Positions 8,000-22,161 of a DNA stretch of 37,931 nucleotides are shown piece by piece. Position 1 is the first letter of the stretch. Each line of letters opens with the position of its first letter. The notes under the pieces are model-generated. The model was not told the origin of the DNA, made no database searches, and saw nothing but the letters and a program-made list of their open reading frames with translations. The position numbers were made by a program, and so were the translations under genes. The stretch comes from a virus, in IMG/VR virus record IMGVR_UViG_3300020183_000215, positions 1 through 37,931 of that record; one strand, written 5' to 3'.

Positions 8000-8479
8000 A
8001 TGAGCGATAAAAACCAGATAAAAATCGAGGGTTCAGAAGCCGCTCAGATGCGACTCAACGATATTCCCGATGTTTTGAGGCTGGCGACCAAAGCTCAGGC
8101 TCAATTCAAACTTTTCCCGATAAACTCGCCATCAACGATTTTGAGGGAAATATCACTTGTTTTGCAGAAAAACTTTAGAAATTCCGTCATTTTCCACGCA
8201 GAAGACGAAGTTGTCGCTGCGTTCATTTTACGCGCCGAGACGAGCGTTTCGGCAGAACTCGTTTACAGTTTCACGTCGTCGGAAGAGCTTTTGACAGCAG
8301 AAATGGCCGAAAAGTTTAAAAAAACGCTGACAAAACTAGGATTTTTGGTAATAAATGCGAAAATTCAAACTAGCCGTAGAGACCTTGACTCGCTTTTAAC
8401 GTTTTTAAAAGATGTTGGTTTCGATGAGATTTCGAGCGAAAACGATGCTTTCGTGTCAATTCGCATCAGAATAGCTTGA
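8000..8479 (+). CDS. GNAT-like small protein
   Basis: A 159-residue protein. The start RLNDIPDVLRLATKAQAQF, the central strand SVIFHAEDEVVAAFILR and a C-terminal half predicted as helix-strand (LGFLVINAKIQ, LLTFLKDVGF) resemble a GNAT acyltransferase fold, but I see no clear acetyl-CoA pyrophosphate loop. Function unknown. It is the first rightward gene after the tail operon and is read from the divergent promoter, probably without a leader. Confidence 0.6.
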   Translation: MSDKNQIKIEGSEAAQMRLNDIPDVLRLATKAQAQFKLFPINSPSTILREISLVLQKNFRNSVIFHAEDEVVAAFILRAETSVSAELVYSFTSSEELLTAEMAEKFKKTLTKLGFLVINAKIQTSRRDLDSLLTFLKDVGFDEISSENDAFVSIRIRIA

Positions 8480-9873: not shown

Positions 9874-10175
9874 AAGCTACTGTTCGTTTCGTTATCTCAA
9901 GCGTCTCGGCGTCCGAAATCGGCATTGATTTTCGCGAACTCTACGTCGTCGAACTAAACGATTATCAATTCGAAGGAGCCGAAGGTGGACAATATGTGAC
10001 TTGTAAAATCGTTAATACCAATAAATTCGCGCCGTTTCTTCTTGAAATCGCAGAGATTTCTTTCTGCGCCCATTCTTTAGTGATTCGCGCATGGTTCGTT
10101 TACAACTTCGAGAAAGAGAAAGAGTCTCGTTTGTTTCGCGGCTCACTAGAAATTCGAGGTATTAACTGCTTATGA
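9870..10175 (+). CDS. Unknown protein, 101 residues
   Basis: Starts in an ATGA overlap with the glycosyltransferase-like gene. Predicted beta-rich (ATVRFVISSVSASEIG, QYVTCKIVNTNKFAPFLLEIAE), no membrane segment or motif I recognise. It is the last native phage gene before the foreign block that begins near 10190. Confidence 0.7.
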   Translation: MKATVRFVISSVSASEIGIDFRELYVVELNDYQFEGAEGGQYVTCKIVNTNKFAPFLLEIAEISFCAHSLVIRAWFVYNFEKEKESRLFRGSLEIRGINCL

Positions 10176-10203
10176 AAATCCACCAAAATCAAAAGAAATC
10201 GGT

Positions 10204-10250
10204 TAAAATCATTTGCTTTTTAACCAGAAATGTAGTATATCTAAGGAGTG
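10204..10250 (+). promoter_or_regulatory. Left edge of the mom element: hairpin and Shine-Dalgarno
   Basis: An inverted repeat starts at about 10201 (GGTTAAAA ... TTTTTAACC, ends about 10225) and is followed by AAGGAG, 7 bases before the ATG at 10255. This strong ribosome site contrasts with the native genes around it, which mostly lack one. The hairpin may end incoming transcription or mark the element end; the exact left end of the insertion is not visible. Confidence 0.4.
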
Positions 10251-10254
10251 AAAA

Positions 10255-10407
10255 ATGAAAGTAATCAAAGTGACAAAAGAGTATTTCGAGACAGAGGACG
10301 AGAAGGTTTATTTCTTCGAGCCTTTGGGAAAAGAAATATCCGTTGAGGATATGCAGAAGATTGTGGACACAAACAAGAAATTAGTTAAGGAGTTGAGAAG
10401 CAAATGA
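10255..10407 (+). CDS. Small acidic/basic protein, first gene of the mom operon
   Basis: A 50-residue protein (starts MKVIKVTKEYFETED) with a good AAGGAG ribosome site. It is highly charged, with a short beta start and a C-terminal helix (EDMQKIVDTNKKLVKELRSK). Its stop overlaps the ATG at 10404 in an ATGA, so it is coupled to the mom ORF. I recognise no family. Possible roles are a partner or regulator of Mom; phage Mu mom also has a small upstream partner gene, com, which activates mom translation, but this protein lacks the Cys zinc-finger residues of Com. The analogy is therefore positional only. Confidence 0.65.
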   Translation: MKVIKVTKEYFETEDEKVYFFEPLGKEISVEDMQKIVDTNKKLVKELRSK

Positions 10408-11042
10408 ATAATTGCGGGGATAGTTTAAAGGTAGAACAAGGAACATTCCAGTTCCAAGATGGCGGTTCGATTCCGACCTCTCCGCTCCATTTTTATATTA
10501 CTGACTTACAGCACAAAGAGGCTAAATCCTTTGTAGAAAAGTGGCATTACTCGCATAGGATACCTACGGGTAAAAACATCTATTTTGGTTTGTGGTGGGG
10601 GAAAGAATTATATGCGGTCATAGTGTATGGAATAGGAGTAAATCCGTATCAGGCAAAATTCTTAAATGTTGACTCAGTAATAGAGATAAAAAGAATGTGC
10701 CGTTCGGAACCAAAGAAGCCCTATGAGTTGTCAAGATTTATTCGCTTGTCCTTGAAGATGGCGAAAAAACTCATGGAGTTTAAAGCAGTAGTTGCTTTTG
10801 CAGACCCAGAGCAAGGGCATGAGGGGACTGTTTATAAGGCTACTGGATTTACGCACGAAGGATATACAAATCCAGAGTGGCATTTGATTGGGGCTGATGG
10901 CGAAAAGAGGCATCGCCGTTATGCCTTCAGGATGGCGCGAAGAAACGGAATAACCGTTTCCGAGGCAAGAGAAGTGCTTGGAATGAAAAGAGTGAAAACA
11001 GAACCTAAACACAGATGGGTTCTCCGGTTAAAACCCGCATGA
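10404..11042 (+). CDS. mom: Mom-family adenine modification enzyme
   Basis: The product matches the Mom family of DNA modification proteins, GNAT-fold enzymes that convert adenine in DNA to N6-carbamoylmethyladenine and protect phage DNA from restriction. Visible family features are KSFVEKWHYSHRIP (residues 41-54), NIYFGLWW, KRMCRSEPKKPYELSRFIRL (97-114) and AFADPEQGHEGTVYKATGF (131-149). Counting from the ATG at 10404, the first 28 or so residues are encoded by the tRNA-like sequence at 10414-10489 and are unlike any Mom N terminus. No ATG, GTG or TTG lies between the tRNA end and the conserved region, so translation must begin at 10404 (ATGA-coupled) or at a rare codon such as the ATT at 10497. 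The stop overlaps the recombinase start (ATGA). A-rich codons and AGA/AGG arginines differ from the flanking genes and suggest transfer. Confidence 0.85.
   Translation: MNNCGDSLKVEQGTFQFQDGGSIPTSPLHFYITDLQHKEAKSFVEKWHYSHRIPTGKNIYFGLWWGKELYAVIVYGIGVNPYQAKFLNVDSVIEIKRMCRSEPKKPYELSRFIRLSLKMAKKLMEFKAVVAFADPEQGHEGTVYKATGFTHEGYTNPEWHLIGADGEKRHRRYAFRMARRNGITVSEAREVLGMKRVKTEPKHRWVLRLKPA
10414..10489 (+). tRNA. tRNA-Gly(UCC)-like gene embedded in the mom operon
   Basis: A 76-base cloverleaf with encoded CCA. The acceptor stem GCGGGGA/TCTCCGC has seven pairs including one G-U. The D arm is GTTT/GAAC with GG in the loop. The anticodon stem GGAAC/GTTCC is perfect but encloses only six bases (ATTCCA), one fewer than normal, with anticodon TCC. 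The T loop is a canonical TTCGATT; the T stem pairs GGCGG with CCGACC only if one A is bulged. Known bacterial glycyl-tRNA synthetase identity bases are kept: G1-C72, C2-G71, U73, C35 and C36. The two defects make normal decoding and firm EF-Tu binding doubtful, while charging remains plausible. It lies inside the N-terminal coding part of the mom ORF on the same strand. It could be a dedicated glycyl donor or a decayed tRNA. Confidence 0.75.
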
Positions 11043-11647
11043 AAATATACAAAATCACCGAAGCCTCTGAATACTTGGGAGTGTCAATAAACACTCTCAA
11101 GACGCTTGCTAATAACGGCAAGATAAACTCTTTCAAGACAACTGGAAGCCATCGGCGTTTTCGTCAGGAAGATTTAGATGCTTTCATGGGCGTTGAGAAA
11201 GAGAAGCAAGAAAAGGTTACGGTGATTTACGCAAGATGTTCAACGGCAAAGCAGAAAGAGAATCTTGAACGGCAAAAAGAACGGTTGATGAAACATGCAG
11301 AAGCCAAAGGTTACAAGTATGTGATGATTGATGAGATTGCCAGCGGGATAAACGAAAAGAGAAATGGCATACACAAGTTAATCAAGATGTGTTTTGAGGG
11401 TAAAGTTGCACGAGTGCTTATTGAATACAAAGATAGGCTTGCTCGATTTGGTTATGAATATCTGGATGCAATCTTTTCAATTCAGGTTGAAGTAATGGAA
11501 GTGAAAGACAAGAAATATGAAGAAGAACTTGCAGAGGATATTATGAAAATTCTTACTTGTTATTCAGCGAGATATTACGGCGCAAGAGGCGGTAGGAAGA
11601 AGAAAAACAAGGCTGAAAATGAGTCTATCGAATCTAATGGAATTTGA
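11039..11647 (+). CDS. tnpA: IS607-type serine recombinase (TnpA)
   Basis: A 202-residue IS607-family transposase. Residues 1-50 form a MerR-like helix-turn-helix (ITEASEYLGVSINTLKTLAN, then GSHRRFRQEDL). The serine recombinase domain follows: VIYARCST with catalytic Ser68, then the YKDRLARFGY arginine motif and the family ending EEELAEDIMKILTCYSARYYG. The ATG at 11039 is chosen over 11015 because it gives the family N terminus and an ATGA overlap with mom. IS607 elements normally carry tnpB next to tnpA; here no tnpB or guide-RNA remnant is seen and mom takes its place. Expected to excise and insert the element without target duplication. Confidence 0.93.
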   Translation: MKIYKITEASEYLGVSINTLKTLANNGKINSFKTTGSHRRFRQEDLDAFMGVEKEKQEKVTVIYARCSTAKQKENLERQKERLMKHAEAKGYKYVMIDEIASGINEKRNGIHKLIKMCFEGKVARVLIEYKDRLARFGYEYLDAIFSIQVEVMEVKDKKYEEELAEDIMKILTCYSARYYGARGGRKKKNKAENESIESNGI

Positions 11648-11666
11648 AAAGGAGGAATTCACTAAC

Positions 11667-13198: not shown

Positions 13199-13683
13199 TC
13201 GAGGTCCAAATAAGTAAAGATATGATCGAAGAGGCTCTGTTCCGAGCCTCGCGAGTTCCCGCTTTGCGCAACTCGGACACTCAGAATCACGGCACGAAAA
13301 TTGCCGCTCTGAGCGACTTGATGGTGCAAAAAACTTGGGGCGGCAGGATCGTGTCCGACATGAGTTTCGACTTCGACTGGATCTCTCCGAAGCTTTATTT
13401 ATTCGAAATAAAAGCGAAAGAGCGAAACGTTGTGCCGCAACCTTGGCACAACTGTGCCGTCAAAGAGTACAACACGAAACAAAAGTGTGATTACTACTTG
13501 TTTACGAGCATCTTTGGCGACTACAGCCGAGGCTGGATTTTAGGCTACGTTTCAAAAGAAGCGTTTTTTAAGCAAGCGAGATTCTTTGAGAAGGGGCAAG
13601 TTGACGACGATCCTCGCGGCGACAAATACGTTTTTCCTTCTAGCTGCTACAACCTAAAAATTGAGCAACTTAGTTGCAAATAA
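13195..13683 (+). CDS. PD-(D/E)XK nuclease-like protein
   Basis: A 162-residue protein with a restriction-like nuclease pattern: an N-terminal helix (EEALFRASRVPAL), then SDMSFDFDWISPKLYLFEIKAKE (about residues 59-81), which gives the D...E-x-K active site, and a later strand/helix (YNTKQKCDYYLFTSIFG). The family is broad, so DNA cleavage is likely but the role (repair, recombination, host DNA attack) is open. It is coupled to the upstream gene and followed directly by an HNH gene. Confidence 0.6.
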   Translation: MIEVQISKDMIEEALFRASRVPALRNSDTQNHGTKIAALSDLMVQKTWGGRIVSDMSFDFDWISPKLYLFEIKAKERNVVPQPWHNCAVKEYNTKQKCDYYLFTSIFGDYSRGWILGYVSKEAFFKQARFFEKGQVDDDPRGDKYVFPSSCYNLKIEQLSCK

Positions 13684-13687
13684 GATT

Positions 13688-14143
13688 ATGAAACTGAGCC
13701 AAGCAGAAGTGCCTCTCTCCCCAGAGGACCATGACCTTTACAATTATTCGTTAACAACAAACTCAAGAGGCTACGTTTGTACTGGTGCAAGAAAGTTTGG
13801 CGAAAGAAGAGTTCACAAGATAGTCGCGAGCAGAATGGGAATCGTTAACCAAAATGGTTCACGTCTGCAAATTGACCATATTAATCAAAATAAATTTGAT
13901 AACCGCAGAGAAAATCTACGGTTAGTCGATAGGTACGTCAACATGAATAATTGCAAGCGTGCATTGAGGGCCAAGGGGGACACGATCGTCAAAGGAAAAT
14001 TTCACGCTTACATCGGAATTAATGGGAAAAGCATTTATCTTGGCACGTTCGATAATCCAGAAGAAGCTCGAAAAGCTTTCGTCGCCGCAAAAAATAAATA
14101 CTTGACAGAGCTGGGCCTAACTGATGTTTTGTTAACAGAATGA
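13688..14143 (+). CDS. HNH endonuclease with AP2-like DNA-binding domain
   Basis: A 151-residue homing-type endonuclease. The HNH core is RRVHKIVASRMG...LQIDHINQNKFDNRRENLRLV (about residues 40-83): H in RVHK, the DH pair and the N of NRRENL. The C-terminal AP2-like domain is KFHAYIGINGKSIYLGTFDN followed by PEEARKAF. Such genes are usually selfish free-standing endonucleases in phages. The ATG at 13688 is preferred to 13661 because it avoids a 23-base overlap. It overlaps uvdE by 4 bases. Confidence 0.9.
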   Translation: MKLSQAEVPLSPEDHDLYNYSLTTNSRGYVCTGARKFGERRVHKIVASRMGIVNQNGSRLQIDHINQNKFDNRRENLRLVDRYVNMNNCKRALRAKGDTIVKGKFHAYIGINGKSIYLGTFDNPEEARKAFVAAKNKYLTELGLTDVLLTE

Positions 14144-15045
14144 ATCTAGCTCTTTGCTGCATCTCCAACATCCTTGCCGAACAAGGTCACAAGTTTCAAA
14201 CTATGACCTACACTCGCTTTGCTTCGCTGCCCCGAGACGAGGCTTTGCGCGTGCTCTCTGAGCGCATCCTCAACAACTTCATCGTCACCGACTTGACGAT
14301 CAATCACTGCGCCAAGCTTGGCATCGCTGGCTATCGCTTGTCGTCAAGCTTAACTCCTGTTATCGATCATCCTAGCGTTGATCTTCAACTCGAACAGTTG
14401 CCCAACTGGTCCAACTTGTCCGCCGCTCTCGACAGCATCAAACACACCATCGAGCAGACTGGTGTCCGCATCTCTGCTCACCCTTCCGAATATGTTTCGC
14501 TAACTAGCGACTCTCCGACCGTTATCGCTAACAGCACGCGAGATCTCATTTCGCACGCCAATCTTTTTGACCGCATCGGTTTGCCGAGCGATTATCGTTC
14601 GCCGCTTAACATTCACTGCCGTCAGGACGGTGACCCCGCCGCAGTCTCGCAGCAGTTTATCAGCAACTTCAACAAACTGCCGAGCAACGTTCGCTCTCGC
14701 TTGACTCTCGAAGTCAATGACAACGTTGGCGGCACTTGGACCGTTGCCAACTTGTTCAAGCACTTCTTTCAGACCAGCGGCATTCCAGTCACTTACGATT
14801 CGCTGCACCGCTCGCTCTGCAACGACGGCAGTTCCGACGAACAAGACTTTTTCTTAGCTCGCAAGACTTGGCCTACTACCCCGCTCTTTCACTACTCTGA
14901 AGGTATTGACGGCACGCGCAAGCACGCCGATATGCCTACGTCCACGCCTCGTAGCTACGACACCGACGTTTACTTTGACGTAGAACTTAAAAACAAAGAT
15001 TATGCCATCCTTAAAATCATCAACGATTCAAACAAAGCTAAATAA
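14140..15045 (+). CDS. uvdE: UV damage endonuclease (UvdE/UvsE)
   Basis: A 301-residue TIM-barrel UV damage endonuclease that nicks DNA 5' of cyclobutane dimers and (6-4) photoproducts. Family segments seen are LGIAGYRLSSSLTPVI...HP, RISAHPSEYVSL (about residues 111-122), NIHCRQDGD (metal ligand His), LTLEVNDN (metal Glu) and PVTYDSLHRSLCND (metal Asp/His). The HYSEGIDGTRKHADMP segment is also typical. Length is near that of bacterial family members. Codons end in C far more often than in neighbouring genes, suggesting recent gain. It lets the phage repair UV damage, which fits a sunlit habitat. Confidence 0.92.
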   Translation: MNLALCCISNILAEQGHKFQTMTYTRFASLPRDEALRVLSERILNNFIVTDLTINHCAKLGIAGYRLSSSLTPVIDHPSVDLQLEQLPNWSNLSAALDSIKHTIEQTGVRISAHPSEYVSLTSDSPTVIANSTRDLISHANLFDRIGLPSDYRSPLNIHCRQDGDPAAVSQQFISNFNKLPSNVRSRLTLEVNDNVGGTWTVANLFKHFFQTSGIPVTYDSLHRSLCNDGSSDEQDFFLARKTWPTTPLFHYSEGIDGTRKHADMPTSTPRSYDTDVYFDVELKNKDYAILKIINDSNKAK

Positions 15046-21211: not shown

Positions 21212-21287
21212 GGGTCTATGGTGAAATTGCATATCACATCGCTCTTCTAAAGCGAAATTTCGGGATGGTATCCCGATAGACCCACCA
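21212..21287 (+). tRNA. tRNA-Arg(UCU)
   Basis: Acceptor stem GGGTCTA/TAGACCC, discriminator A, encoded CCA. Anticodon arm TCGCT-CTTCTAA-AGCGA gives anticodon TCT. The D arm GTGA/TCAC has no GG in its loop (AATTGCATA), and the T loop is ATGGTAT instead of the usual TTCRANN, on stem TCGGG/CCCGA. All stems are perfect, so the gene looks maintained, but the usual elbow contacts are missing. It would read AGA codons, which are common in the mom element and present in phage genes. Confidence 0.85.
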
Positions 21288-22073: not shown

Positions 22074-22161
22074 GGTCGCGTGCATGGAACGGCAGACAGG
22101 GAGCATTCAAAATGCTCTGCTCTTCGCGAGCGTGAGGGTTCGACTCCCTCCGCGACCACCA
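22074..22161 (+). tRNA. tRNA-Leu(CAA)
   Basis: An 88-base class II tRNA. Acceptor stem GGTCGCG/CGCGACC, discriminator A, encoded CCA. Anticodon arm GAGCA-TTCAAAA-TGCTC gives anticodon CAA for TTG codons. Long variable arm GCTC/GAGC, canonical T arm GAGGG-TTCGACT-CCCTC. Only 4 bases separate the CCA end from the next ATG, so processing of the tRNA may create that mRNA 5' end. Confidence 0.93.

Follow-up and report, generated by a model that had tools for sequence, protein, structure and literature searches.

A phage IS607-family transposon with exchangeable DNA-modification genes, and a tRNA-Gly-like RNA at its mom gene as a putative glycine donor

The Mom enzyme of bacteriophage Mu converts adenine into a glycinamide derivative; it protects the entire genome of the phage and is toxic when expressed artificially. 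To our knowledge, the donor of the glycinamide group is still an open question. Glycyl-CoA was proposed for this role (PMC7824862). Use of Gly-tRNA outside translation is described for FemX, and in S. aureus the FemXAB enzymes are supplied by tRNA-Gly isoacceptors that bind EF-Tu weakly (PMC4052509). In the searched literature on glycinamide, glycyl-tRNA and Mom no proposal of a Gly-tRNA donor was found, but unpublished or non-open-access work is not excluded. Mobile elements IS607, IS1535 and ISC1926 share the TnpA family, have no terminal inverted repeats and do not duplicate the target. Exchange in the IS607 family occurs over 2 bp at or next to GG, and tnpB is dispensable for transposition (PMC6188088). 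A literature search for IS607 elements with methyltransferase cargo found no paper.

The window analysed here, 37,931 nucleotides of viral DNA (IMG/VR record IMGVR_UViG_3300020183_000215, positions 1 to 37,931), contains an element which is like these three in all listed respects and, unlike other IS607 elements, carries orfS and a swappable DNA-modification gene but no tnpB (Table 1). Its borders were placed with the help of some 40 further copies and of an empty site. The latter was found in two relatives, L143 and L220, which were retrieved with a phage protein of the flank as query, are 99.3% (left flank) and 94% (right flank) identical to the window, and lack exactly the element, having the continuous sequence AGAAATTCGAGGAATTCACTAA in its place. 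Their uninterrupted target reads AGAAATTCGAGGAATTCACTAATATG, and the window has the same plus 1,496 bp without duplication. Across the copies the target is followed by GAGGTTnTAACTGC at the left junction, and GAATCTAATGGAATTTAAAAAGGA is followed by the target at the right one. An initial annotation, made from the window alone, proposed an IS607-type element at 10190–11660 with mom in place of tnpB and recommended a search for empty sites in related phages. Both the empty site and the match to IS607 transposases agree with this proposal. The suggested borders were approximately right, the actual ends lying within the two GAGG junctions, and the gene content (mom, tnpA, tRNA) was correct except that orfS, also a part of the element, had been missed.

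Table 1. Features of the transposon and its immediate surroundings in the window
Feature	Position	Strand	Remarks
Upstream phage gene	9870..10175	+	End ..EIRGIH-stop becomes ..EIRGINCL-stop by insertion (L143 empty-site translation)
IS607-family transposon	10156..11651	+	Adds 1,496 bp net; end positions can shift by at most 4 nt inside GAGG
Left junction GAGG, target/element boundary	10156..10159	+	Left-end alignment and empty site
Element left end, non-coding, with AAAATC direct repeats	10160..10254	+	Kept in other copies
orfS, 50-aa conserved ORF	10255..10407	+	Conserved in about 28 copies
mom, Mom/GNAT-family adenine-modification enzyme	10404..11042	+	PF25680 3e-33; ATGA overlap with orfS stop
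tRNA-Gly-like RNA	10414..10489	+	Rfam tRNA 30.8 bits; overlaps mom 5' end, in frame
tnpA, IS607-family serine transposase	11039..11647	+	NF033518 1.7e-51; start overlaps mom stop (ATGA)
Right end GAATCTAATGGAATTTGAAAAGGA	11630..11653	+	Conserved in 42 distinct junctions
Right junction GAGG	11652..11655	+	Copy comparison and empty site
Downstream phage gene, 72 aa	11667..11885	+	Its Shine-Dalgarno sequence is the target site

All genes of the element are located on the + strand in the order left end, orfS, mom, tnpA, with ATGA overlaps at both the orfS/mom and the mom/tnpA borders, the second of which had been noticed before. No inverted repeat joining both ends is present in the window, and the left and right ends are unlike each other; the AAAATC direct repeats are inferred to be possible TnpA binding motifs. 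There is no tnpB in the window element and no room for one, and the Rfam scan of the window registered tRNAs only, with no group I intron or guide RNA (the presence of an omegaRNA model in Rfam was not checked), which is in line with the earlier remark that neither tnpB nor an omega-RNA-like sequence is seen. The codon usage had been described as foreign; AGA/AGG account for 15 of 28 Arg codons in mom plus tnpA versus mostly 0–2 in each neighbouring gene, with the exception of 8000–8479. The GC content of the element is 39.6% versus 44.7 and 46.4% in the flanks, and blastn (distant) of this region against cultured phages gave no match. Since substitutions in orfS are distributed between codon positions as 104/54/233, it was considered as protein-coding; it has no Pfam or NCBIfam match, and its 3' end provides the Shine-Dalgarno (SD) sequence and linker for the cargo gene.

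TnpA scored 174.5 bits with the NCBIfam model NF033518 (cut-off 110) and also matched the transposase family phrog_6620. Its domain order, HTH_17 and then Resolvase, is typical for IS607 serine recombinases with their N-terminal MerR-like HTH, and the YARCS motif is invariant. The search of 2.9 million viral contigs with TnpA resulted in 60 loci. In 84,980 prokaryote genomes the clade was detected on six contigs, all from MAGs, and at least one of them (L139) has phage-type genes (terminase-like by reading of its ORFs). The two scans had different query patterns, so that the ratio of these counts is only indicative, and most records are metagenomic fragments. Judging from these sequences, we regard the element as a mobile cassette for interchangeable DNA modification that occurs almost exclusively in phages; its transposition activity is inferred.

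Assignment of the window Mom to the family of the Mu enzyme is supported both by Pfam and by fold. It matched phrog_1384 with 5e-36 and the profile of Mu Mom (8bv8) with 1.1e-25, and the closest PDB structures to its AlphaFold model (pLDDT 92.8) are 8bv8 and then GNAT acetyltransferases. By reading of the family alignment, the CoA-binding Q/RxxGxG/A loop is absent, and a nearly invariant Ser aligns with Ala of the chain of the inactive Mu Mom mutant S124A; probably it is S124, although the numbering offset was not checked. Unlike mom of Mu, the window gene is transposon-borne and overlapped by a tRNA-Gly-like RNA; we know of no such tRNA beside mom in Mu.

This RNA had been annotated simply as a tRNA carried by the element. 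It is real, but unusual, and lies within the first part of the mom ORF. It has an encoded CCA, the anticodon UCC in a loop of 6 nt and a T stem with a bulged A, and ARAGORN calls it with a 2-base anticodon. Similar RNAs precede mom in many unrelated phages, and scanning with the Mom alignment added loci with such an RNA in the same place. In 15 aligned loci 99.7% of the pair cells are standard versus 37–51% in slid controls, and two-sided changes were found at 13 of 21 pairs, which was reached in none of 500 shuffles. The pairs G1-C72, C2-G71 and G3-C70 are invariant in this set, as are C35 and C36; the anticodon is UCC or CCC, U73 is present in 14 of the 15 and the L077 RNA has no encoded CCA. 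Overall, therefore, the identity set of glycyl-tRNA synthetase (acceptor pairs, U73, C35 C36, CCA) is kept. The 7-nt anticodon loop, in contrast, is never present (6 nt in 15/15), nor is a regular 5-bp T stem: the bulged A occurs in 15/15 and is kept via compensatory changes in L072. G18-G19 and the T-loop consensus are missing in several of the 15 RNAs. A short anticodon loop together with a bulged T stem looks unsuited to translation.

The covariance model built on these loci found two new cases at L111, where two tandem divergent mom genes (L111:3001-4251) each have their own overlapping tRNA-Gly-like RNA. Two further Mom-encoding records, L128 and L114, contain a free-standing RNA away from mom, with a 5-nt UUCCA loop and the bulged A. 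Among 50 records selected for having no Mom, the matches examined were ordinary tRNAs, except for one unrelated degenerate tRNA; a pattern search of IMG/VR for the 6-nt-loop form returned only mom loci, and blastn of the mom-linked tRNA against cultured phages gave ordinary tRNAs only. The tRNA matches in large Mom phages were considered as evidence and rejected as canonical tRNAs. On the Mom tree the tRNA label requires 5–7 changes versus 14 for shuffles and appears in distant lineages, and one subclade within the main tRNA-bearing clade lacks it (single loss); L111, L128, L041 and L055 form long branches of unsure placement. Against a general donor role, such a tRNA is absent from the vicinity of many Mom genes, among them those of L041, L055 and, as generally known, Mu; these enzymes, like those of the subclade without the RNA, would have to use the host tRNA-Gly.

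The position of the RNA allows another interpretation, namely that it is a cis-acting regulator of mom and not a donor, whose folding or processing by RNase P/Z hides or removes the start and so switches timing or dosage. The reading frame of mom extends across the tRNA at almost every locus. In-frame start codons that precede the Mom domain fall inside the tRNA at L072, L074, L077 and L111, in the D-loop at the last three, and at L074, L077 and L111a the acceptor stem sequence GCGGAGG is placed so that it could act as SD. Since these starts and SD sequences sit inside the tRNA, folding and translation are mutually exclusive, and with the start codon in the D-loop a given transcript would yield the enzyme or the tRNA, not both. 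This overlap suggests a further layer. However, a pure switch needs no GlyRS identity set, encoded CCA or Gly anticodon across deep Mom lineages, and the copies in L128 and L114 stand alone at a distance from mom. Regulation alone thus seems to us an unlikely explanation, although not a negligible one.

The best reading of this RNA is a dedicated Gly-tRNA donor for Mom, which is inferred and not shown. It resembles the non-proteinogenic tRNA-Gly of Staphylococcus in having the anticodon and acceptor of tRNA-Gly along with changes expected to weaken EF-Tu binding, and differs from it in overlapping the enzyme gene, in the bulged A of the T stem and in the anticodon loop, which is 1–2 nt short. 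FemX has GNAT-like domains, but unlike in the FemXAB reactions the acceptor would be DNA adenine, not peptidoglycan. Host tRNA processing may cut the RNA out of the transcript and the host glycyl-tRNA synthetase may charge it; the short anticodon loop and bulged T stem would keep it out of translation, so that it could donate glycine to Mom. Mom, with its GNAT fold lacking the CoA loop, would move glycine to adenine N6, giving N6-glycyl-adenine, and the known glycinamide on C6 might then arise by attack of the glycine amine on C6 via a five-membered ring (Smiles-type rearrangement); this chemistry is inferred, as are charging and donation. Where the overlap exists, the RNA would be both the mRNA start and the substrate carrier. 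We favour, with some reserve, such tRNA-dependent DNA modification, in which Mom takes glycine from Gly-tRNA and a dedicated non-translating tRNA-Gly, encoded by some phages in overlap with mom, travels with this gene in a transposon specialised in the spread of DNA-modification genes. The explanation as a whole, a phage IS607 transposon with an exchangeable modification gene and a tRNA-Gly donor for Mom, we consider quite probable. A conserved tRNA-Gly tied to mom points to Gly-tRNA and makes the donor question testable with purified parts; if true, this would be, within the literature searched, the first DNA modification made from aminoacyl-tRNA.

The second peculiarity of the element is its variable interior. 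The window blocks 10156–10396 and 11039–11656 are common to most of the 60 loci, whereas the mom segment is not, and about 40 loci have the same end blocks in unrelated flanks. DNA-modification enzymes are encoded by 40 of 54 non-identical cargo ORFs: 14 MT-A70, 12 N6/N4 methylases, 4 C5-methylases, 4 phrog_757 methyltransferases, 3 Mom, 2 D12 methylases and 1 phrog_11619 methyltransferase; 7 more are PAPS-reductase-like and 7 unassigned. About 30 of them were scanned directly and the others assigned by blastp to the scanned ones; the tally includes one near-duplicate pair (L018/L047). The idea of an adenine-only cargo set was dropped, as C5-methyltransferases and PAPS-reductase-like genes are present, and tnpB was not met among the assigned cargo genes of other copies. 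The same enzyme families are known as orphan phage DNA methyltransferases and anti-restriction genes, unlike which the cargos share one serine transposase in a common cassette frame. A search for other mom-tnpA neighbours, also recommended at the outset, revealed further IS607-type elements with a different mom in L041 and L055. Their mom genes are 33% and 24% identical to that of the window, and because the three differ to such an extent (24–33%) mom was captured more than once. On this sequence evidence mom is one of many DNA-modification cargos swapped in this IS607 lineage.

A conserved linker, AAATTAGTTAAGGAGTTGAAAG-ATG, often precedes the cargo starts, and the cargo end overlaps the tnpA start in most copies. 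L055 and L031 are multi-cargo elements with at least two modification genes and short orfS/tnpA scars between the cargos. Cargos are swapped as cassettes between the orfS 3' end (SD and ATG) and the tnpA start (ATGA); that this proceeds by recombination in the shared linkers is a guess with no demonstrated mechanism. The expectation that mom and tnpA move together was met in the window, L041 and L055, but not in L002 and L003, where mom and tRNA 92–93% identical to those of the window stand without tnpA in other phage contexts; L003 retains, as a cassette scar, some 19 nt from the end of orfS (3'). Mom and tnpA are therefore not obligate partners. Roughly 0.4 kb upstream of its mom, which lacks a tnpA, L002 encodes a stand-alone TnpB-like protein (L002:3386-4621; NCBIfam guided_TnpB 1e-17, below cut-off).

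The phage plausibly gains a protective DNA modification from the cargo, protection being inferred. Conversely, the cargo might serve the transposon itself, methylation or momylation of its ends or circle regulating transposition or shielding the excised circle. Coupling of the cargo stop to the tnpA start in most copies and the fact that nearly all cargos modify DNA would fit such a role, but the cargo enzymes are chemically diverse and presumably recognise different target sequences, and in Mu it is the whole phage genome that mom is established to protect, so that we regard this as improbable.

As to the target, it continues with GG at 30 of the 42 distinct right junctions, as compared to 5.3% of all GA sites in the same DNA, and GG followed by ATG within 15 nt was found in 21 of 42 versus a background of 1.35% (P for the target preference about 1e-28, sites being treated as independent). 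The element therefore enters Shine-Dalgarno sequences, oriented with the downstream gene. Left flanks complete GG at the GGA core in 31 of 35 cases, the window site and L023 being exceptions. Exchange occurs within GGA, most sites being compatible with both GG and GA, L023 only with GA and L024 only with GG, which broadly agrees with the IS607 GG rule (PMC6188088). For IS607 (G)GG with no further pattern was reported, whereas this clade strongly prefers the Shine-Dalgarno GGAGG before phage genes. Insertions are mostly located between genes, and the one in the window leaves the upstream gene unchanged apart from its last residues. Joined to the target GG, the right end GAATCTAATGGAATTTGAAAAGGA provides the following gene with a strong SD (AAGGAGG). 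Thus, TnpA would insert the element without target duplication at GGA(GG) SD sites between co-directional phage genes, where it would be transcribed with the phage operon and rebuild AAGGAGG for the downstream gene; co-transcription and the rebuilt strong SD should make its cost to the phage low. An IS607 lineage that exchanges modification genes and inserts into SD sites would shuttle anti-restriction genes between phages and amount to a natural cassette system that leaves no scars.

Spread of the end blocks by homologous recombination of phages, with TnpA no longer active, was considered in view of the cassette boundaries inside the element, which look recombinational, and the scars in the multi-cargo arrays of L055 and L031. 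However, there is no homology between flanks of different copies, insertions at GGA are scarless, and tnpA is intact and 83–94% identical to that of the window in aligned copies, which leaves this possibility very little support. Finally, the tRNA-like sequence as a remnant of an attachment site where mom once inserted, as tRNA genes are generally known to be common integration sites and mom starts at or in the tRNA, can hardly be maintained and was rejected on covariation, since two-sided changes at 13 of 21 pairs imply continuing selection, the RNA accompanies mom in unrelated settings, the IS607 element among them, and free-standing copies have the same oddities.

Several other features were noted in these genomes. 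Relative to L143 and L220 the window has a second insertion (13665–14139), corresponding to an HNH-type homing-endonuclease-like ORF (13661–14143, by reading) that is missing there, and a UvdE-type UV endonuclease is encoded at 14140–15045. The phage also has rIIA/rIIB, lambda-like tail genes and a clamp loader, and ARAGORN finds further tRNAs at 21212–21287, Arg(TCT), and 22074–22161, Leu(CAA). Homing-endonuclease-like ORFs, again by reading, are present inside the transposon in two other records, within tnpA at L039:5588-6499 and beside it at L137:2400-2999.
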